45,774 nucleotides of DNA, taken from contig JAHEMG010000011.1 in NCBI GenBank assembly GCA_024643755.1, positions 1 through 45,774 on the forward strand, given 5' to 3'. The DNA is from Flavobacteriales bacterium. Lineage in GTDB: Bacteria; Bacteroidota; Bacteroidia; NS11-12g; UBA955. The notes beneath the pieces are model-generated. The model saw nothing but the letters and a program-made list of their open reading frames with translations, was not told the origin of the DNA and made no database searches. Each line of letters starts with the position of its first letter. The first letter of the stretch is position 1. A program made the position numbers and the translations under genes. This document shows positions 8,843 to 16,055 of this stretch, in pieces.

Positions 8843-9334
8843 TTATCCAACAACCTCGGCAATCACTTTGTCGATGGCTTCGAAGTCGTAACCCTTCCCA
8901 ACCAGATATCGCTTCAACTTGAACACCTTTTCGATGTGCGAGGCGCCTTTGATCAATGGCCATTTTTTGGCGGCGAGTGTATTCAACGTATCCAAATAAT
9001 CGTCCATCCCTAGCGAGGCCAACGCTTGCTGTATGAGTTTTTCCCCCACACCTTCTCGCTTCAGTCCCTGTTTGATTTTGGCTTTTCCCCAGCCCTTGAT
9101 TTTGAATTTACCCCGCGCATAAGCCATGGCAAATCGCTCTTCATTGAGGAAGTTGCTGTGCATCAGTTCCACCAACAAAATATCCGCATCGATGCCATTC
9201 AGGCCATAGTCCATCAGCTTCCGTTTCACCTGCTGATGACTCCGCTCTTGATAAGCACAAAACTTCTCAATCTTGGGCTTCGCCTGAGAGGGGGTTAGGG
9301 TTTTCTTGAAAGGTTGTTGATCGTTAAACGGCAT
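8843..9334 (-). CDS. recX: RecX-family regulator of RecA
   Basis: A 163-residue, basic, three-helix-repeat protein. The repeats are typical of RecX: KIEKFCAYQERSHQQVKRKLMDYG, then SNFLNEERFAMAYARGKFKIKGWGKAKIKQGLKREG, then a third repeat (KRYLVGKGYDFEAIDKVI). RecX binds inside the RecA filament groove and modulates recombination and the SOS response. The start codon at 9334 lies inside the end of the DUF6364-like gene (11-bp overlap), so the two are read from one mRNA and probably translationally coupled. No recA gene is in the window. The convergent ATPase gene ends 17 bp away. Confidence 0.88.
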   Translation of the reverse strand: MPFNDQQPFKKTLTPSQAKPKIEKFCAYQERSHQQVKRKLMDYGLNGIDADILLVELMHSNFLNEERFAMAYARGKFKIKGWGKAKIKQGLKREGVGEKLIQQALASLGMDDYLDTLNTLAAKKWPLIKGASHIEKVFKLKRYLVGKGYDFEAIDKVIAEVVG

Positions 9335-9599
9335 GTCTCGTTAACCGCATTTCCATAGACATGGATTTTAGTTCCGCATCAGAATACTGATTGTACTGTT
9401 TGAGAAGTCCACCGAATTTTGTGATGAAGGGATCCTCCTCTAAGTGTGGGTTCTTAGGCATTGATGAATCAAGTGTTATTGGTTGTTCAACAAAAATTTG
9501 CTCCACCAATAATGAAATAGAAGTTCCCTTGGTTTGAGCCAAAGACTTCATTTTAGCAATCAAAGGTTCATCTAAAAACAAAGTTAACTTCTTCTTCAT
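9324..9599 (-). CDS. DUF6364-like antitoxin-type protein without a partner toxin
   Basis: A 91-residue protein starting MKKKLTLFLDEPLIAKMKSL, then AQTKGTSISLLVEQIF. This is the ribbon-helix-helix-like N-terminus of DUF6364 proteins, normally antitoxins encoded just before a VapC (PIN-domain) toxin. The C-terminal half (LEEDPFITKFGGLL) also fits, since these antitoxins end in a toxin-binding tail. Here the following gene is recX instead of a PIN toxin, and no PIN gene is nearby. ATG at 9599 is chosen because a -7 box ends five bases upstream; a longer frame to 9641 runs through that box. Probable role: DNA-binding autoregulator or orphan antitoxin. Assignment by pattern only. Confidence 0.6.
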   Translation of the reverse strand: MKKKLTLFLDEPLIAKMKSLAQTKGTSISLLVEQIFVEQPITLDSSMPKNPHLEEDPFITKFGGLLKQYNQYSDAELKSMSMEMRLTRHAV

Positions 9600-9604
9600 T
9601 CGTA

Positions 9605-9612
9605 CAAATTTA
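9605..9612 (-). promoter_or_regulatory. -7 promoter box (TAAATTTG) of the antitoxin-recX pair
   Basis: Exact TAnnTTTG on the minus strand, five bases before the ATG at 9599, so the mRNA should be leaderless or nearly so. It would drive both the antitoxin-like gene and recX. The remaining spacer up to htpG at 9844 holds nothing else I can name. Confidence 0.6.
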
Positions 9613-9843
9613 AACATTTTCTCTACGTATAATCTCTCCATAAAATCCTTGTTGCAAAGGAACTCTCATCAAAACACATTTCATTCTCGTGTGATGAAAT
9701 ATGCAACACAAATAGTGTCTTTGGCAATTATTACAAACTGACAAACACGCCCGCATTGCAAACCACGATGCATATTAAACCCTTGTTACTATGACAAAAT
9801 TTCAGTTCTGCTACATTGGTACATCAATTGACAATGCAACGGC

Positions 9844-11658
9844 ATGAGAACAGGACAGATTTCAGTTCAATCAGAGAACATTTTCCCCATCATCAAAAAA
9901 TTCCTGTACACCGACCAGGAAATTTTCCTTCGTGAATTGGTGAGCAACGCGGTGGACGCCACCAAGAAACTCAGCACTTTATCGCGTGTGGGCGAGTTTG
10001 AAGACCCCATCGACAACTGTAAAGTAGAAATTAGCTTCGACGAAAAAGCCAAAACCTTGACCATTTCCGATTCAGGTATCGGGATGACCGAAGAGGAGGT
10101 AGAAAAATACATTACCCAATTGGCATTTTCAGGTGCTCGCGAGTTTGCAGAACAATGGAAAGACAAAGACCCAGACCAAATGATCGGTCATTTCGGATTG
10201 GGCTTCTATTCTGCATTCATGGTTTCTAAAACTGTAAGCATCGAAACAAAATCTTACCAAAAAGGCGCTCAAGCCGTGCATTGGGATTGCGATGGTGCTA
10301 CCAGCTATAACATCGGCAAAGGCAAACGCAAAAAGCGCGGAACGGATGTCATTTTGCACCTAACCGACGAAGATGCTGAAACGTATTTGTCCAAGTGGAA
10401 ACTCCGCGAATTACTCCGCAAATACTGTCGCTTCCTTCCCGTCCCCATCACCTTCGACGGTGAAGACATCAACAATACCCAGCCCATTTGGACGAAAAAG
10501 CCCGCTGAGTTGGAATCAGAAGACTACAAAAAATTCTTCGAAGAGTTGTATCCTGCCCAAGAAGCACCCTTGTTTAACATCCACATCAACACCGATTACC
10601 CCTTCAACCTTACGGGCGTTTTGTACTTCCCCAAGGTAAACGAAGCCATCGACAACCGCCAAAATCGCGTACAATTGTATTGCAACCAGGTGTTTGTTAC
10701 TGAGGACGTGAAAGACGTGTTGCCCGAGTATTTGGTGTTGCTCAAAGGGGTTATCGACTCCCCAGATATTCCGTTGAACGTATCGCGCAGTTCTTTACAG
10801 AGCGATGCCAACGTGAAGAAAATCACCCAGCACATCAGCAAAAAGGTAAGTGACAAATTGAATGAGTTGTTCAAAGCCGATCGCACCGACTTCGATGGTA
10901 AGTGGGAATACTTGGATTTGTTTGTGAAGTATGGCATGGTGGCCGACGAAAAATTCGCTGAGCGCACCAAAGACATTTGCTTGTTGAAAACCACCGACGA
11001 CAAACTCTACACCATCCAAGAATGGATCGATCACGCCAAAATCAATCAAACCGATAAAAACGGAGAAACTGTTGTGCTCTATGCGACCGATGTAAACGTA
11101 CAACACATGAACATCAAAGCCGCCAAAGACAAGGGCTATGAAGTGGTGGTATTAAACGGTCCGTTAGACACCCATTTCGCCGGTTGGTGCGAAGGCAAAT
11201 TCGAAAAAGTGAAATTCCGTTGCGTAGATGGCGGTCCGATGGACCAACTGATCGAGAAGGAAGTGACCATCGAATCTGTGTTGAGCGAAGATCAGCGCAA
11301 GACCTTGGAAGAAAGCGTGAAAGCCATTGTGAATGAATTGGCGTTTGACGTAAAAATAGAATCGTTGCCACCCCAAGACGATTTCATTTCGGTGCACCGC
11401 AGTGAGTGGGAGCGCAGGATGGAAGACATGGCCAAGATGGGCAACGGGTTCCCTTATGGCAGCATGGGCTTGAACAAGCAAACGATGGTGGTCAATACCA
11501 ACCACGCATTGGCCAGCAAGGTTTTGAACAAAGATGGCGATAGCAGAAACGAGTTGTTGCAATACTGCATGGACTTGGCGATGCTTCAGCGCGGTCAATT
11601 ACAAGGTGAGTCTTTGGAGCGATTTGTGAAAAAAGCCCAAGGGTTTATCCTAGACTGA
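9844..11658 (+). CDS. htpG: HtpG, Hsp90-family molecular chaperone
   Basis: A 604-residue cytosolic ATP-dependent chaperone of near-usual length. The N-terminal GHKL ATPase domain shows IFLRELVSNAVDATKK (the ATP-Mg helix; Asn and Asp ligands), DSGIGMT, and the lid and glycine loop GHFGLGFYSAFMV. The middle domain has the catalytic-arginine loop (DIPLNVSRSSLQSD), and the C-terminal dimerisation domain ends FVKKAQGFILD. The start MRTGQISVQSENIFPIIKKFLY matches the family N-terminus. No CIRCE-like inverted repeat is visible upstream. A possible weak -7 element (TACATTGG) lies about 25 bp before the ATG. Ends at a strong shared terminator before the rhodopsin gene. Confidence 0.96.
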   Translation: MRTGQISVQSENIFPIIKKFLYTDQEIFLRELVSNAVDATKKLSTLSRVGEFEDPIDNCKVEISFDEKAKTLTISDSGIGMTEEEVEKYITQLAFSGAREFAEQWKDKDPDQMIGHFGLGFYSAFMVSKTVSIETKSYQKGAQAVHWDCDGATSYNIGKGKRKKRGTDVILHLTDEDAETYLSKWKLRELLRKYCRFLPVPITFDGEDINNTQPIWTKKPAELESEDYKKFFEELYPAQEAPLFNIHINTDYPFNLTGVLYFPKVNEAIDNRQNRVQLYCNQVFVTEDVKDVLPEYLVLLKGVIDSPDIPLNVSRSSLQSDANVKKITQHISKKVSDKLNELFKADRTDFDGKWEYLDLFVKYGMVADEKFAERTKDICLLKTTDDKLYTIQEWIDHAKINQTDKNGETVVLYATDVNVQHMNIKAAKDKGYEVVVLNGPLDTHFAGWCEGKFEKVKFRCVDGGPMDQLIEKEVTIESVLSEDQRKTLEESVKAIVNELAFDVKIESLPPQDDFISVHRSEWERRMEDMAKMGNGFPYGSMGLNKQTMVVNTNHALASKVLNKDGDSRNELLQYCMDLAMLQRGQLQGESLERFVKKAQGFILD

Positions 11659-11685
11659 GCCAGTATTTAAGATTGATACTAAAAC

Positions 11686-11714
11686 AAAAAGGCCCGCTTC
11701 CGCGGGCCTTTTTT
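11686..11714. terminator. Bidirectional intrinsic terminator between htpG and the rhodopsin gene
   Basis: A perfect 7-bp GC stem, GGCCCGC (11691-11697) and GCGGGCC (11702-11708), with a TTCC loop. It is flanked by AAAAA on the left and TTTTTT on the right, so it reads as an intrinsic terminator from both strands. Both converging genes end within 35 bp of it. Confidence 0.9.
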
Positions 11715-11736
11715 GCTATCTATACATCCAAAGAAA

Positions 11737-12489
11737 TTAATCTTTATCTGCCTGAGTAAGTGCGTAGATAACCAAACCGAAACCGATTTTGTTTACTGCA
11801 TCACCGATGTTGTAAATAACATCCATCACGCGAGTATCCACGCTGAAAGTGATTCCAAACAAACCACCTGGGGTACCCAAAATGTAACCCAAAGGATAGA
11901 TTGCCCAACCTACCAATACAAACCAACCCAAAGTCTTGGTTGCTTTTGCTACCGCTGCACCAGCATTGTTTGCCAAAGTAGCCACTTCGCCGAACCATAC
12001 CAAGTATACAATGTAGAAGTAAGCAGCACCAGAAACTACACCCCAAAGAACACTAGACTCACGCCATACTGCTTCTCCGAAGTAACCAGTTACCAACATC
12101 ACTACAGAAGCGAAAATCAACTTCCACAACAATCCTTGCTTGGCACCTGCCTTTTTGGTGATCAAATAAAACTCAACACACATCAAAGGAACAGTCAACA
12201 ACCAATCCACGTAACGGAAGAAAGTTGGAGACGCTTGGTGTTCCATGAAAAATCCGCGCATGTAATAGTAGTGCACGGCAGCAATGAAGGTAATCAAACC
12301 TGATACCAACATTGAAGTTCTCCAACGCTCTGCAACATTGCGCATCTCGAAGAAGAAGAAAACAGAAGCCGCCATCATGGCCATAGTACCTACGAAGAAG
12401 GTAAAAGCGATGTACGACGGAAGTGAAGTTCCAGTCAGAAGATCCAACTCACTGCTGGATGCAACTGTGTTTAGTAATTGTGTAACCAT
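11737..12489 (-). CDS. Light-driven proton-pump rhodopsin (proteorhodopsin type, DTE motif, fenestrated)
   Basis: A 250-residue, seven-helix retinal protein. Schiff-base lysine is Lys234 (DAVNKIGFG) with counter-ion Asp230. Helix C reads RYVDWLLTVPLMCVE: proton acceptor Asp95, Thr99 and donor Glu106 form the DTE motif of outward proton pumps. His73 matches the proteorhodopsin His75 that partners the acceptor. Met103 sits at the spectral-tuning site, where Leu or Met gives green absorption. By hand alignment of helix E, Gly150 (VLWGVVSGAAYFY) falls where green proteorhodopsin has Phe152 and xanthorhodopsin has the glycine lining its carotenoid site. Converges on htpG across a strong terminator. 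No retinal-forming (blh) or carotenoid gene is in the window. Spacing of the motifs is exactly the family's. Confidence 0.96.
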   Translation of the reverse strand: MVTQLLNTVASSSELDLLTGTSLPSYIAFTFFVGTMAMMAASVFFFFEMRNVAERWRTSMLVSGLITFIAAVHYYYMRGFFMEHQASPTFFRYVDWLLTVPLMCVEFYLITKKAGAKQGLLWKLIFASVVMLVTGYFGEAVWRESSVLWGVVSGAAYFYIVYLVWFGEVATLANNAGAAVAKATKTLGWFVLVGWAIYPLGYILGTPGGLFGITFSVDTRVMDVIYNIGDAVNKIGFGLVIYALTQADKD

Positions 12490-12530
12490 TTGATTTAGAT
12501 TAGTTTAGTGAAATGAGAAACACACAAGCT

Positions 12531-12538
12531 CCAAAATA
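12531..12538 (-). promoter_or_regulatory. Possible -7 box (TATTTTGG) of the rhodopsin gene
   Basis: One mismatch to TAnnTTTG, on the minus strand, 41 bp before the rhodopsin ATG. No good -33 TTTG is found at 19-20 bp. Tentative. Confidence 0.35.
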
Positions 12539-12565
12539 GTGTTTGCGAAAAATGAAAATTATTCA

Positions 12566-12577
12566 TTGTTGCAACAA
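12566..12577. promoter_or_regulatory. Perfect 12-bp palindrome upstream of the rhodopsin gene
   Basis: TTGTTGCAACAA is its own reverse complement and lies 77-88 bp before the rhodopsin ATG, just upstream of the tentative promoter. This suits an activator or repressor dimer site. The rest of the 244-bp gap (12490-12733) is AT-rich with short runs of A and no gene. Confidence 0.35.
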
Positions 12578-12733
12578 CTATTAAGTTGGCCCACAAACTT
12601 CAGAATATCAATGAATTCAGGGCTTGAACCCCAACAACCAATCAAAAAAAATCAAAAATTGGGCGGTTTTGTTTAAGTGTTTATCAACTAACCCTCCACA
12701 AAATAATTTTCTAAAATCAACAAAATCAACAAT

Positions 12734-15700
12734 TTACCATCCGTGAATATCCAACAATGGTGCAATGGTCTGCGTTGATACCGCCTTTACAAACGCTGCG
12801 TAATCCTTGGCCATAAATGCATTGATCCGCTTAACCACCGCATCCGTCTCCCGCTGTGCCGTTTTCACCGCAATCCAACAGTTTTCACCTGGCATTTCAT
12901 TGCTCTCCACCAATCCATAAGCCGTTTGCAAATGATCCATCAAACGAATGGTGGCTTCTTCGTAAGGACGGAAATCGGCCGGTAGCATATACAGCAACTT
13001 CAACGCCGCGATGCTATCCAACAAAGGTTTTTCGAACTTCCGCAACTGCACATTGGCACTATCGCTGATGTATTTATGGTTCATCCACAAACCCACACTT
13101 TTCTCTGCGTCTTTCAAACCCTCAAACGCCAACCGCGCCCGCTCAATGGTTTTCTTCAACGTATCCAGCATCTCGCGCTGTTTGGCATCCCCCGCAGCAC
13201 TGTATTCAAAACCCTTCGGCATACGCACCTGGATCCATACCGAATCCGCCATCGCGCCAGAAGAAATCACCAATTTGTATTTTCCGGGCGATATCGTTCT
13301 GCCTGCAGGAATCCCTTCATCAGGTTTGGGCGTATGGTGCGATGGCCAACGGAAACCGTCTTCCACCAAGCGATACGGCACGCGGTAATACCCCGAACTA
13401 TCAAAAGAGAATTTGTGGGTGCGAATCAATCGGCCCGACTCATTATACACTTTGCCCACGCAATCCAATTTCTTCCACTCGCCTGAAGTCAAATCCTTCT
13501 CTGCACCAATTTTCACATCCACTGGGGCACCATAAGGCTTGTTCGCTGCGCTCCAAGCCTCATCAGCGGCAAACCTCGCTCCGCTCGGTTGTCTGTATCT
13601 CGCCAACACACCGTCGCCGGCGTGTACTATGTCAATGTTTACCATCCCCCCATTCGCCGCCACCGCAATCTCGCCCTTCACCAACTTCCGCAACACCGCA
13701 ATGTCATCAAATACCCAAATGCCCCGACCAAATGTCCCCAACACCAAATCGCGCTCCCTGGCCTGTATCTTCATATCGGCCACCGGCACACTCGGAAATC
13801 CTTTCCACTTCTTCCAAATCACCCCGCCATCCACACTTACGTACAACCCGTGATCCGTTCCCAAAAACACCAGTCCCGGCGCCTCTACATCTGGCAACAC
13901 ACTCAACACATACCCGGTCACCTTATCGCCCTTTGCCTCCTTGTTGCCAAAGCCATCCGCACTCACTTTGCGCGTCCAACTAGCCCCGTAATTCGATGTG
14001 TAATACAAATACGGCGCCCAGTCGTTCTGACGGTAATTGTTCACCACCACCCAGGCCTCCGCCGCATTCTTCGGATTCGTCCATACGTAGGGAATCCAAG
14101 CCCCCGGCGCATCCTTGGCAATCGCAGCACCCACAAACGTCCAACTCTTTCCCCCATCGCGGGTTACATGCACCTTTCCATCGTCTGTGCCCACATACAC
14201 CACCTGCTGATCCGCCGCCGAGGGCGCAATCGCCAAAATGGTACAATGATTTTCCGCTCCCGTAGCATCCACCGTGATACCCCCGCTCTTCGCCTGCTCC
14301 TGTTTCTTGGGGTCGTTGCTCGTTAAATCAGGCGATATCACACGCCACGACTTCCCATTGTCGCCACTGTAATGCACGTACTGACTGCCATAATACAACG
14401 CATTGGCATTGAAAGGATCCACTGCCATCGCCGCATTCCAATTGTATCGCAACGGTTTGCCCTCGGGGTGCTGCGGTTTGATGAAAAACGACTGATGCGT
14501 ATTTCGGTTCCAGTGGTAGACATTCCCGCCCTGATACATCGCATAGCCCTCGCCCGGTTTTCCCGGAATCGGCGCCACATCAAATCCATCGCCAAACAAA
14601 ACCTCCTGCCACTCGCTATTTTTGATACCGCCCTCAACCCAATGATAGGCCGGTCCGTACCAACTTCCGTTATCCTGCAACCCACCATATACATTGTAGG
14701 GCTCTTGATCGTCGACTTCCACATGGTAAAACTGTCCAACCGGAATGTTCTCCGCATATCGCCATGTCTCGCCGCCGTCATACGAAATGTTCAATCCCCC
14801 ATCGTTGCCATTGATCACGTATTTTGGATCCTCGGGATGCACATAAAACGCATGATGATCGGGGTGGATATGTCCCCAATCAGCCAAAATATCCCAGTGT
14901 TTGCCACCATCTTCGCTGCGGGCGATCTGACTCCAAATACTATATACCCTGTTCTCGTTGCATGGGTCCACGTACAATTCGGCATAGTAAAACGGACGGT
15001 TACCGGCATTGCCATCGGTACTTACTTTGTACCAGCGATCGCCGCCATTATCGGTGCGATACACCGCGGTTTCAGCCGACTCCACAAACGCATACACCCG
15101 ATTGGGCGATGAGGGCGCAACCGCCAAACCAATTCTTCCGATATCGCCTTTGGGCAGGCCTTCTTTCACGCCACTGCGCTTCCACGTTTTACCGCCATCA
15201 TAAGAAATGTATAATCCACTGCCGGATGCCGGACGTTTATCGGTTTCACTCTTTTTTTCTGCACCGCCCACGGTGGCTGCATTTCCGCTGCGGAAGGTCC
15301 AGGGCTTGCGCTCAAAATCCCACATCGCTGCGTAGATCTTTTGGGGATTCAACGGATCAATGACCAGTTCTGCACAGCCCGTAGTCGGATTGACGTACAA
15401 GGTTTTCTGCCAAGTTGCACCGCCATCATCGGAGCGATACACCCCGCGATCTACGTTGCCACCCCAAACAGAACCCATCGCCGCCACCCACAACTGGGCC
15501 GGATTTTGGGGATTGATTACAATGCGATGAATGGTTTTGGTGGTTTCAAGTCCCACACAACGCCAAGTTTTGCCCGCATCCACACTCTTATAGAGTCCTT
15601 TACCGCTGTTGTGGCTGTTTCGGGGATTGCCCTCGCCAGTGCCCACATACACCACGCTGGGGTTGATGGGATCCACCGCGATAGCACCGATGCTTTGTAC

Positions 15701-16000
15701 ATCCATTTCATCGAAGATAGGCGACCATCCAATGCCCCCATCCACGCTTTTCCATACCCCGCCACTGGCAGTACCGGCATAGATCACCGTGCGATTGATC
15801 GCACCCAAAGCACCTTTGCGGGGCATCGCCAATGCAGTAACGCGACCGCTCATGGCACCCGGACCGATATTGCGTTTGGGTATGTGCTTCATCACTGCCT
15901 CCAACTCTGTGGTTTGACTCACAACAGTTGTAGGGGTTTGCGCTTGCGCATCGCCCAAAAACAGGCAGCCCAAAGACAAACTCCAGCCCAAGGTTTTCAT
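12734..16000 (-). CDS. Large secreted Asp-box (BNR/sortilin-type beta-propeller) protein
   Basis: A protein of 1,088 residues from the start used here, with signal peptide MKTLGWSLSLGCLFLGDAQA. At least ten Asp-box motifs (SxDxGxxW type) are seen: KSVDGGIGW, KSVDAGKTW, RSDDGGATW, ISYDGGKTW, RTDNGGDRW, RSEDGGKHW, ISYDGGETW, YSGDNGKSW, VTRDGGKSW, VSVDGGVIW. These mark one or two multi-blade propellers, as in VPS10/sortilin and BNR glycosidase-like proteins. The last 300 residues are a beta domain followed by helices. No T9SS sorting domain, so probably periplasmic or outer-membrane associated. Such proteins are often named glycosyl hydrolase, but no catalytic residues can be assigned. An upstream ATG at 16051, right after a -7 box, would add 17 residues before the signal peptide and is the alternative start. 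Confidence 0.85.
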   Translation of the reverse strand: MKTLGWSLSLGCLFLGDAQAQTPTTVVSQTTELEAVMKHIPKRNIGPGAMSGRVTALAMPRKGALGAINRTVIYAGTASGGVWKSVDGGIGWSPIFDEMDVQSIGAIAVDPINPSVVYVGTGEGNPRNSHNSGKGLYKSVDAGKTWRCVGLETTKTIHRIVINPQNPAQLWVAAMGSVWGGNVDRGVYRSDDGGATWQKTLYVNPTTGCAELVIDPLNPQKIYAAMWDFERKPWTFRSGNAATVGGAEKKSETDKRPASGSGLYISYDGGKTWKRSGVKEGLPKGDIGRIGLAVAPSSPNRVYAFVESAETAVYRTDNGGDRWYKVSTDGNAGNRPFYYAELYVDPCNENRVYSIWSQIARSEDGGKHWDILADWGHIHPDHHAFYVHPEDPKYVINGNDGGLNISYDGGETWRYAENIPVGQFYHVEVDDQEPYNVYGGLQDNGSWYGPAYHWVEGGIKNSEWQEVLFGDGFDVAPIPGKPGEGYAMYQGGNVYHWNRNTHQSFFIKPQHPEGKPLRYNWNAAMAVDPFNANALYYGSQYVHYSGDNGKSWRVISPDLTSNDPKKQEQAKSGGITVDATGAENHCTILAIAPSAADQQVVYVGTDDGKVHVTRDGGKSWTFVGAAIAKDAPGAWIPYVWTNPKNAAEAWVVVNNYRQNDWAPYLYYTSNYGASWTRKVSADGFGNKEAKGDKVTGYVLSVLPDVEAPGLVFLGTDHGLYVSVDGGVIWKKWKGFPSVPVADMKIQARERDLVLGTFGRGIWVFDDIAVLRKLVKGEIAVAANGGMVNIDIVHAGDGVLARYRQPSGARFAADEAWSAANKPYGAPVDVKIGAEKDLTSGEWKKLDCVGKVYNESGRLIRTHKFSFDSSGYYRVPYRLVEDGFRWPSHHTPKPDEGIPAGRTISPGKYKLVISSGAMADSVWIQVRMPKGFEYSAAGDAKQREMLDTLKKTIERARLAFEGLKDAEKSVGLWMNHKYISDSANVQLRKFEKPLLDSIAALKLLYMLPADFRPYEEATIRLMDHLQTAYGLVESNEMPGENCWIAVKTAQRETDAVVKRINAFMAKDYAAFVKAVSTQTIAPLLDIHGW

Positions 16001-16055
16001 GGTATATCGATTTACTACAGCATTCATTCTTGACATCATGGCACTATGCATTTTT

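Follow-up and report, generated by a model that had tools for sequence, protein, structure and literature searches.

We examined a stretch of 45,774 nucleotides, referred to below as the window (positions 1 to 45,774 of contig JAHEMG010000011.1 in the Flavobacteriales bacterium assembly GCA_024643755.1), which carries a gene for a proteorhodopsin that probably uses a carotenoid as light-harvesting antenna. The open reading frame (11737..12489, minus strand, as are all codons given below) encodes a protein of 250 amino acids which matches the Pfam family Bac_rhodopsin (PF01036) with an E-value of 1.6e-42. The Pfam match, alignments and predicted fold point to a proteorhodopsin-family outward proton pump with a predicted carotenoid fenestration. 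The gene is present as a single copy in the genome (G000; 2.36 Mb, 208 contigs, 97.7% complete). On the 5' side it is preceded by a long gene in the same orientation (12734-16051; 1105 amino acids), and on the 3' side it is followed by the convergent htpG. A likely intrinsic terminator, a GGCCCGC hairpin followed by a T run that was read directly from the sequence, is located between rhodopsin and htpG (11681..11708, minus strand). The order recX, htpG, rhodopsin and the 1105-amino-acid gene (8843-16051) is kept in the same genus (L002, L003, L109).

The initial annotation of the window had named His73, Asp95, Thr99, Met103, Glu106, Gly150 and Lys234 as key residues, and each of them is found at that number in the translation. 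By alignment, Asp95 (12205..12207) is the putative Schiff-base proton acceptor, Glu106 (12172..12174) the putative proton donor of the DTE motif and Lys234 (11788..11790) the retinal Schiff-base lysine, while Met103 (12181..12183) occupies the spectral-tuning position, which is Leu in green proteorhodopsin (GPR) and Gln in blue proteorhodopsin (BPR). Asp95, Thr99, Glu106 and His73 are identical in all 80 close relatives. That the protein is a light sensor or another type of ion pump instead of a proton pump is highly improbable, considering the DTE motif, His73 and Lys234, the closest relatives (NM-R1, GPR and BPR) and the fact that no transducer gene was recognised beside the rhodopsin gene.

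The PF01036 match, Lys234 and an AlphaFold2 model with proteorhodopsins as best matches place the protein within the microbial rhodopsin fold. The model was built on 53 relatives and has a mean predicted local distance difference test (pLDDT) score of 84.3 and a predicted template modelling (pTM) score of 0.81. Its best Foldseek match is PDB entry 9jou (E 1.7e-18, root-mean-square deviation (rmsd) 1.5, TM 0.85/0.92, 66% identity), which is entitled 'zeaxanthin-bound light-driven proton pumping rhodopsin, NM-R1'. NM-R1 also ranked first in VIA-align 2 (Z 30.7, rmsd 2.0, 228 residues), with neighbouring proteorhodopsins within 1 Z unit. In a maximum-likelihood tree, which has an arbitrary root and some long branches, the protein clusters with NM-R1 (100/97); it lies on the side of GPR and BPR, and a starred branch separates it from xanthorhodopsin (XR), Gloeobacter rhodopsin (GR) and Kin4B8. 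It is therefore not a member of the xanthorhodopsin family, with which it shares 28-30% identity. Judged by its sequence, it is a green-tuned proteorhodopsin of the Bacteroidota (NM-R1-like) clade that would pump protons outwards.

A glycine at the fenestration position (XR 156, Kin4B8 153) is the primary criterion for carotenoid binding (PMC12308411), and Gly150 (12040..12042) provides this residue. The initial annotation had counted back from the end of helix E (Y162-L-V-W165-F-G167-E168) to match Gly150 to Gly156 of XR and Phe152 of GPR, and both pairwise and multiple alignments confirmed this assignment. In these alignments Gly150 is also opposite Gly153 of Kin4B8, a glycine of GR and a tryptophan of BPR, and the W-G motif of XR, Kin4B8 and GR aligns with W149-G150, on which the MAFFT alignments agree. 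The XR query was identical to PDB chain 3ddl over all 273 residues, and counting along the printed Kin4B8 chain gave W152-G153, Gly153 being the residue named in PMC12308411. A phmmer search against PDB gave Phe as the GPR counterpart, numbered F152 by the offset that makes the aspartate of GPR D97. The bulky residue that, according to the initial annotation, would have spoken against an antenna is thus not present at this position. A chance alignment of Gly150 is contradicted by its conservation in 81 of 81 sequences (the window protein and 80 close relatives) and in 47 of 47 outward pumps from Bacteroidota.

Besides the glycine, a conserved Tyr (Tyr204 in Kin4B8) is a further criterion for carotenoid binding (PMC12308411). 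The corresponding residue is Tyr202 (11884..11886; Tyr207 in XR), a Tyr common to the known carotenoid-binding rhodopsins, and the pocket as a whole reads Tyr202/Ile203/Thr206/Pro207. Ser208 of Kin4B8 is required for zeaxanthin binding and Tyr209 influences energy transfer (PMC12308411). At the Kin4B8 208 position, which is polar in binders of hydroxylated carotenoids, the protein has Thr206 (11872..11874; Thr in KR1, EinA29G6 and NM-R1), the expected hydroxyl anchor for ring A of zeaxanthin. The published pockets are Tyr/Met/Thr/Asp for KR1 and Tyr/Ile/Thr/Glu for EinA29G6 (PMC12308411, Table 2). Gly150, Tyr202 and Thr206 thus match the published criteria for xanthophyll binding at the level of sequence (PMC12308411). 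Position 209, which is polar in Kin4B8, KR1 (Asp) and EinA29G6 (Glu), is occupied by Pro207 (11869..11871), as in NM-R1. A polar residue here, which XR lacks as well, is not required, because NM-R1 has Pro and is nevertheless zeaxanthin-bound according to its PDB title. In Kin4B8 the Y209F substitution retained binding and lowered transfer from about 40% to about 18% (PMC12308411). As the protein has Pro207 and not Tyr at this site, its transfer efficiency cannot be read from Kin4B8.

The genome also encodes the predicted pathway for the pigments. The initial annotation had suggested a search for blh, crtZ and crtY, and all three genes are present. The blh gene (PF15461; above the cut-off of NCBIfam TIGR03753) adjoins crtY with a 14-base overlap on contig C3, which is a different contig from that of rhodopsin. 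The genes crtZ, crtI and crtB are found on contig C73 in one orientation and overlap, indicative of an operon. CrtI scored above its NCBIfam cut-off and CrtB and CrtY above their Pfam cut-offs. CrtZ (148 amino acids) matched no Pfam or NCBIfam family; it contains the histidine motifs HKYVMH, HESHH, HDVFVH and HHLHH and has matches at 44-48% identity, one of which is encoded in Comamonas next to crtY and the genes for phytoene synthase and phytoene desaturase. The genome also has two polyprenyl synthases. The predicted products of the pathway are beta-carotene, retinal and zeaxanthin, and with crtB, crtI, crtY and crtZ the host has the genes to make a hydroxylated carotenoid. A PF04116 protein of 409 amino acids (contig C59) was rejected as CrtZ, being longer and having as sole NCBIfam match an ornithine-lipid hydroxylase model, below its cut-off.

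A different antenna carotenoid, either a ketocarotenoid as in XR or a further modified xanthophyll, is quite improbable. XR and GR hold 4-ketocarotenoids in the same fenestration (PMC12308411) and carotenoid-modifying enzymes may have escaped recognition. However, no CrtW-like ketolase gene was found in a search of the whole 97.7%-complete genome, Thr206 is polar like its counterparts in hydroxy-carotenoid binders whereas XR and GR have Met, and the related KR1 did not bind canthaxanthin (PMC12308411). Proteins with a PF00487 domain were considered as CrtW and rejected, one of them scoring 18.6 bits against a cut-off of 350 bits.

The genes crtY and blh adjoin rhodopsin in many more distant relatives, unlike the order in the same genus. 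Among the fetched loci, 35 have the cyclase (PF05834) and Blh (PF15461) in one frame, and such fusions form single open reading frames of about 680 amino acids adjoining rhodopsin (for instance L022:6695-8794, L017:6234-8291, L018:3815-5878(-) and L073:6763-8802); in the genome of the window crtY and blh are separate genes. No description of a bacterial lycopene cyclase-Blh fusion was found in the literature searched, which is not proof of novelty.

The fenestration glycine is not peculiar to this bacterium. Gly150, Tyr202, Thr206 and Pro207 are all present in each of the 80 relatives (68-96% identity). The set of 47 outward pumps, a broader draw from the phylum plus relatives (L126 was left out of the counts), includes both proteorhodopsin- and xanthorhodopsin-type proteins down to about 35% identity, and by sequence the glycine is general in the Bacteroidota pumps sampled. 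Of 228 positions, no more than 29 are invariant in this set. Gly150 and Ser153 are the only two of them at which GPR and BPR both have another residue; at M38 this applies to GPR alone. The constancy of the glycine is compatible with selection for an antenna and also with shared ancestry. A second Bacteroidota proteorhodopsin clade (L093-L100, L106, L107, L110, L122) keeps the glycine and the Tyr; its motif, YMCMPGGW, is one residue shorter and has no Thr as anchor, a hint that these proteins may prefer a different carotenoid. Rhodopsins of two genomes of the same genus (G008 and G012; L091, L092) are only 63-64% identical and group with that of another genus (g7), which points to replacement of the gene within their own genus. 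A very divergent rhodopsin (L137; G365:C1:854300-855700) has D-T-Q, Ser replacing His73 and an extremely long branch. Viral contigs yielded no relatives.

From the sequence, the pocket residues, the predicted fold and the pathway genes we infer proton pumping, zeaxanthin binding and energy transfer, and we consider an NM-R1-like proton-pumping proteorhodopsin with a zeaxanthin antenna in the Gly150 fenestration to be the best explanation and a probable one. Retinal, formed from beta-carotene by the Blh of the genome, would sit on Lys234, and light would move a proton via Asp95 and Glu106. Close to the retinal ring, Gly150 would open a lateral gap between helices E and F. Zeaxanthin, as the product of CrtB, CrtI, CrtY and CrtZ, most likely inserts its 3-hydroxylated ring there, where it would be held near Tyr202 and Thr206, and the carotenoid would pass blue-light energy to retinal. 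The antenna put forward in the initial annotation is thereby supported, with the glycine confirmed, blh, crtY and crtZ present and NM-R1 zeaxanthin-bound by its PDB title.

Several observations weigh against this explanation. Pro207 stands in place of the polar residue of Kin4B8, KR1 and EinA29G6, and CrtZ was assigned by histidine motifs, similarity to carotenoid-cluster genes and operon context, not by a family model. The distribution of crtZ points both ways. Among 117 related genomes (including that of the window), rhodopsin is present in 68, blh in 62 and crtZ in 97; crtZ occurs in 64 of the 68 rhodopsin-bearing relatives compared to 33 of the 49 without rhodopsin, a difference that speaks for the antenna but is uncorrected for shared ancestry and only supportive. 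The presence of crtZ in many rhodopsin-less relatives, on the other hand, implies that zeaxanthin has other uses. In addition, Gly also occupies the fenestration position in three rhodopsins of the phylum with the NDQ motif (Na+-pump type; L138, L139, L140), so that the glycine alone is no proof of an antenna. The NDQ rhodopsins and the 33 relatives with crtZ and no rhodopsin would also fit a function of Gly150 in shaping the retinal pocket, taking up retinal or tuning the colour, with the fenestration empty or lipid-filled and zeaxanthin serving only membrane protection. We regard this as unlikely, since the nearest homologue NM-R1 was solved with zeaxanthin bound (PDB title), KR1, which belongs to the same family, binds 3-hydroxy xanthophylls (PMC12308411), and pumping itself does not require the glycine, as GPR and BPR are pumps that have Phe or Trp in its place.

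With the zeaxanthin antenna as the favoured explanation, a guess based on one residue has become a well-supported prediction in which the pigment is named and its genes have been located, for an uncultured lineage of Bacteroidota. The protein is a solid but expected addition to a recently discovered family. It is possible, though we lean slightly against it, that Bacteroidota proton pumps have carotenoid antennas as a rule and not as an exception, the glycine being as invariant as the retinal lysine in both proteorhodopsins and xanthorhodopsins and sub-clades of the pocket marking different carotenoid preferences and transfer efficiencies. These sub-clades might, equally tentatively, be Thr-Pro, to which the window protein belongs, and Met-Pro, one residue shorter, in the other proteorhodopsin clade. 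Should antennas be general among Bacteroidota pumps, estimates of light capture by rhodopsin that consider retinal only would leave out blue light for a large fraction of these cells.

Among the known systems, NM-R1 is the closest (9jov/9jou chain; 67% identity over 221 aligned columns). It shares the DTE motif, Met, His and Lys and the pocket Gly, Tyr, Thr and Pro with the window protein; its pocket is Gly/Tyr/Met/Thr/Pro, so the window protein differs by Ile203 in place of Met, in addition to other changes. Its binding of zeaxanthin is taken from the title of the PDB entry alone. No other single result supports the antenna as strongly as this close homologue, which has the same pocket down to the Pro and was apparently solved with zeaxanthin. 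KR1 (Dokdonia eikasta) and EinA29G6 are proteorhodopsins which bind lutein and zeaxanthin, belong to the same family and have the same Tyr and Thr in the pocket (PMC12308411, Table 2), but have Asp or Glu where the window protein has Pro207, as compared by the published residue table. Kin4B8 (PDB 8i2z, 7ytb) binds 3-hydroxy xanthophylls with a transfer of about 40-56% in the cited papers and shares the fenestration glycine (Gly153) and Tyr204, but belongs to the xanthorhodopsin family, is about 28% identical and has Ser208-Tyr209 instead of Thr206-Pro207. XR of Salinibacter ruber (PDB 3ddl) shares the Gly156 fenestration and the DTE pump motif, and differs in family (about 28-30% identity), in its ketocarotenoid salinixanthin and in having Met-Ala at the ring end. 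GPR (PDB 7b03) is of the same family (41-43% identity) and has the same pump residues, but its fenestration is filled by Phe152.
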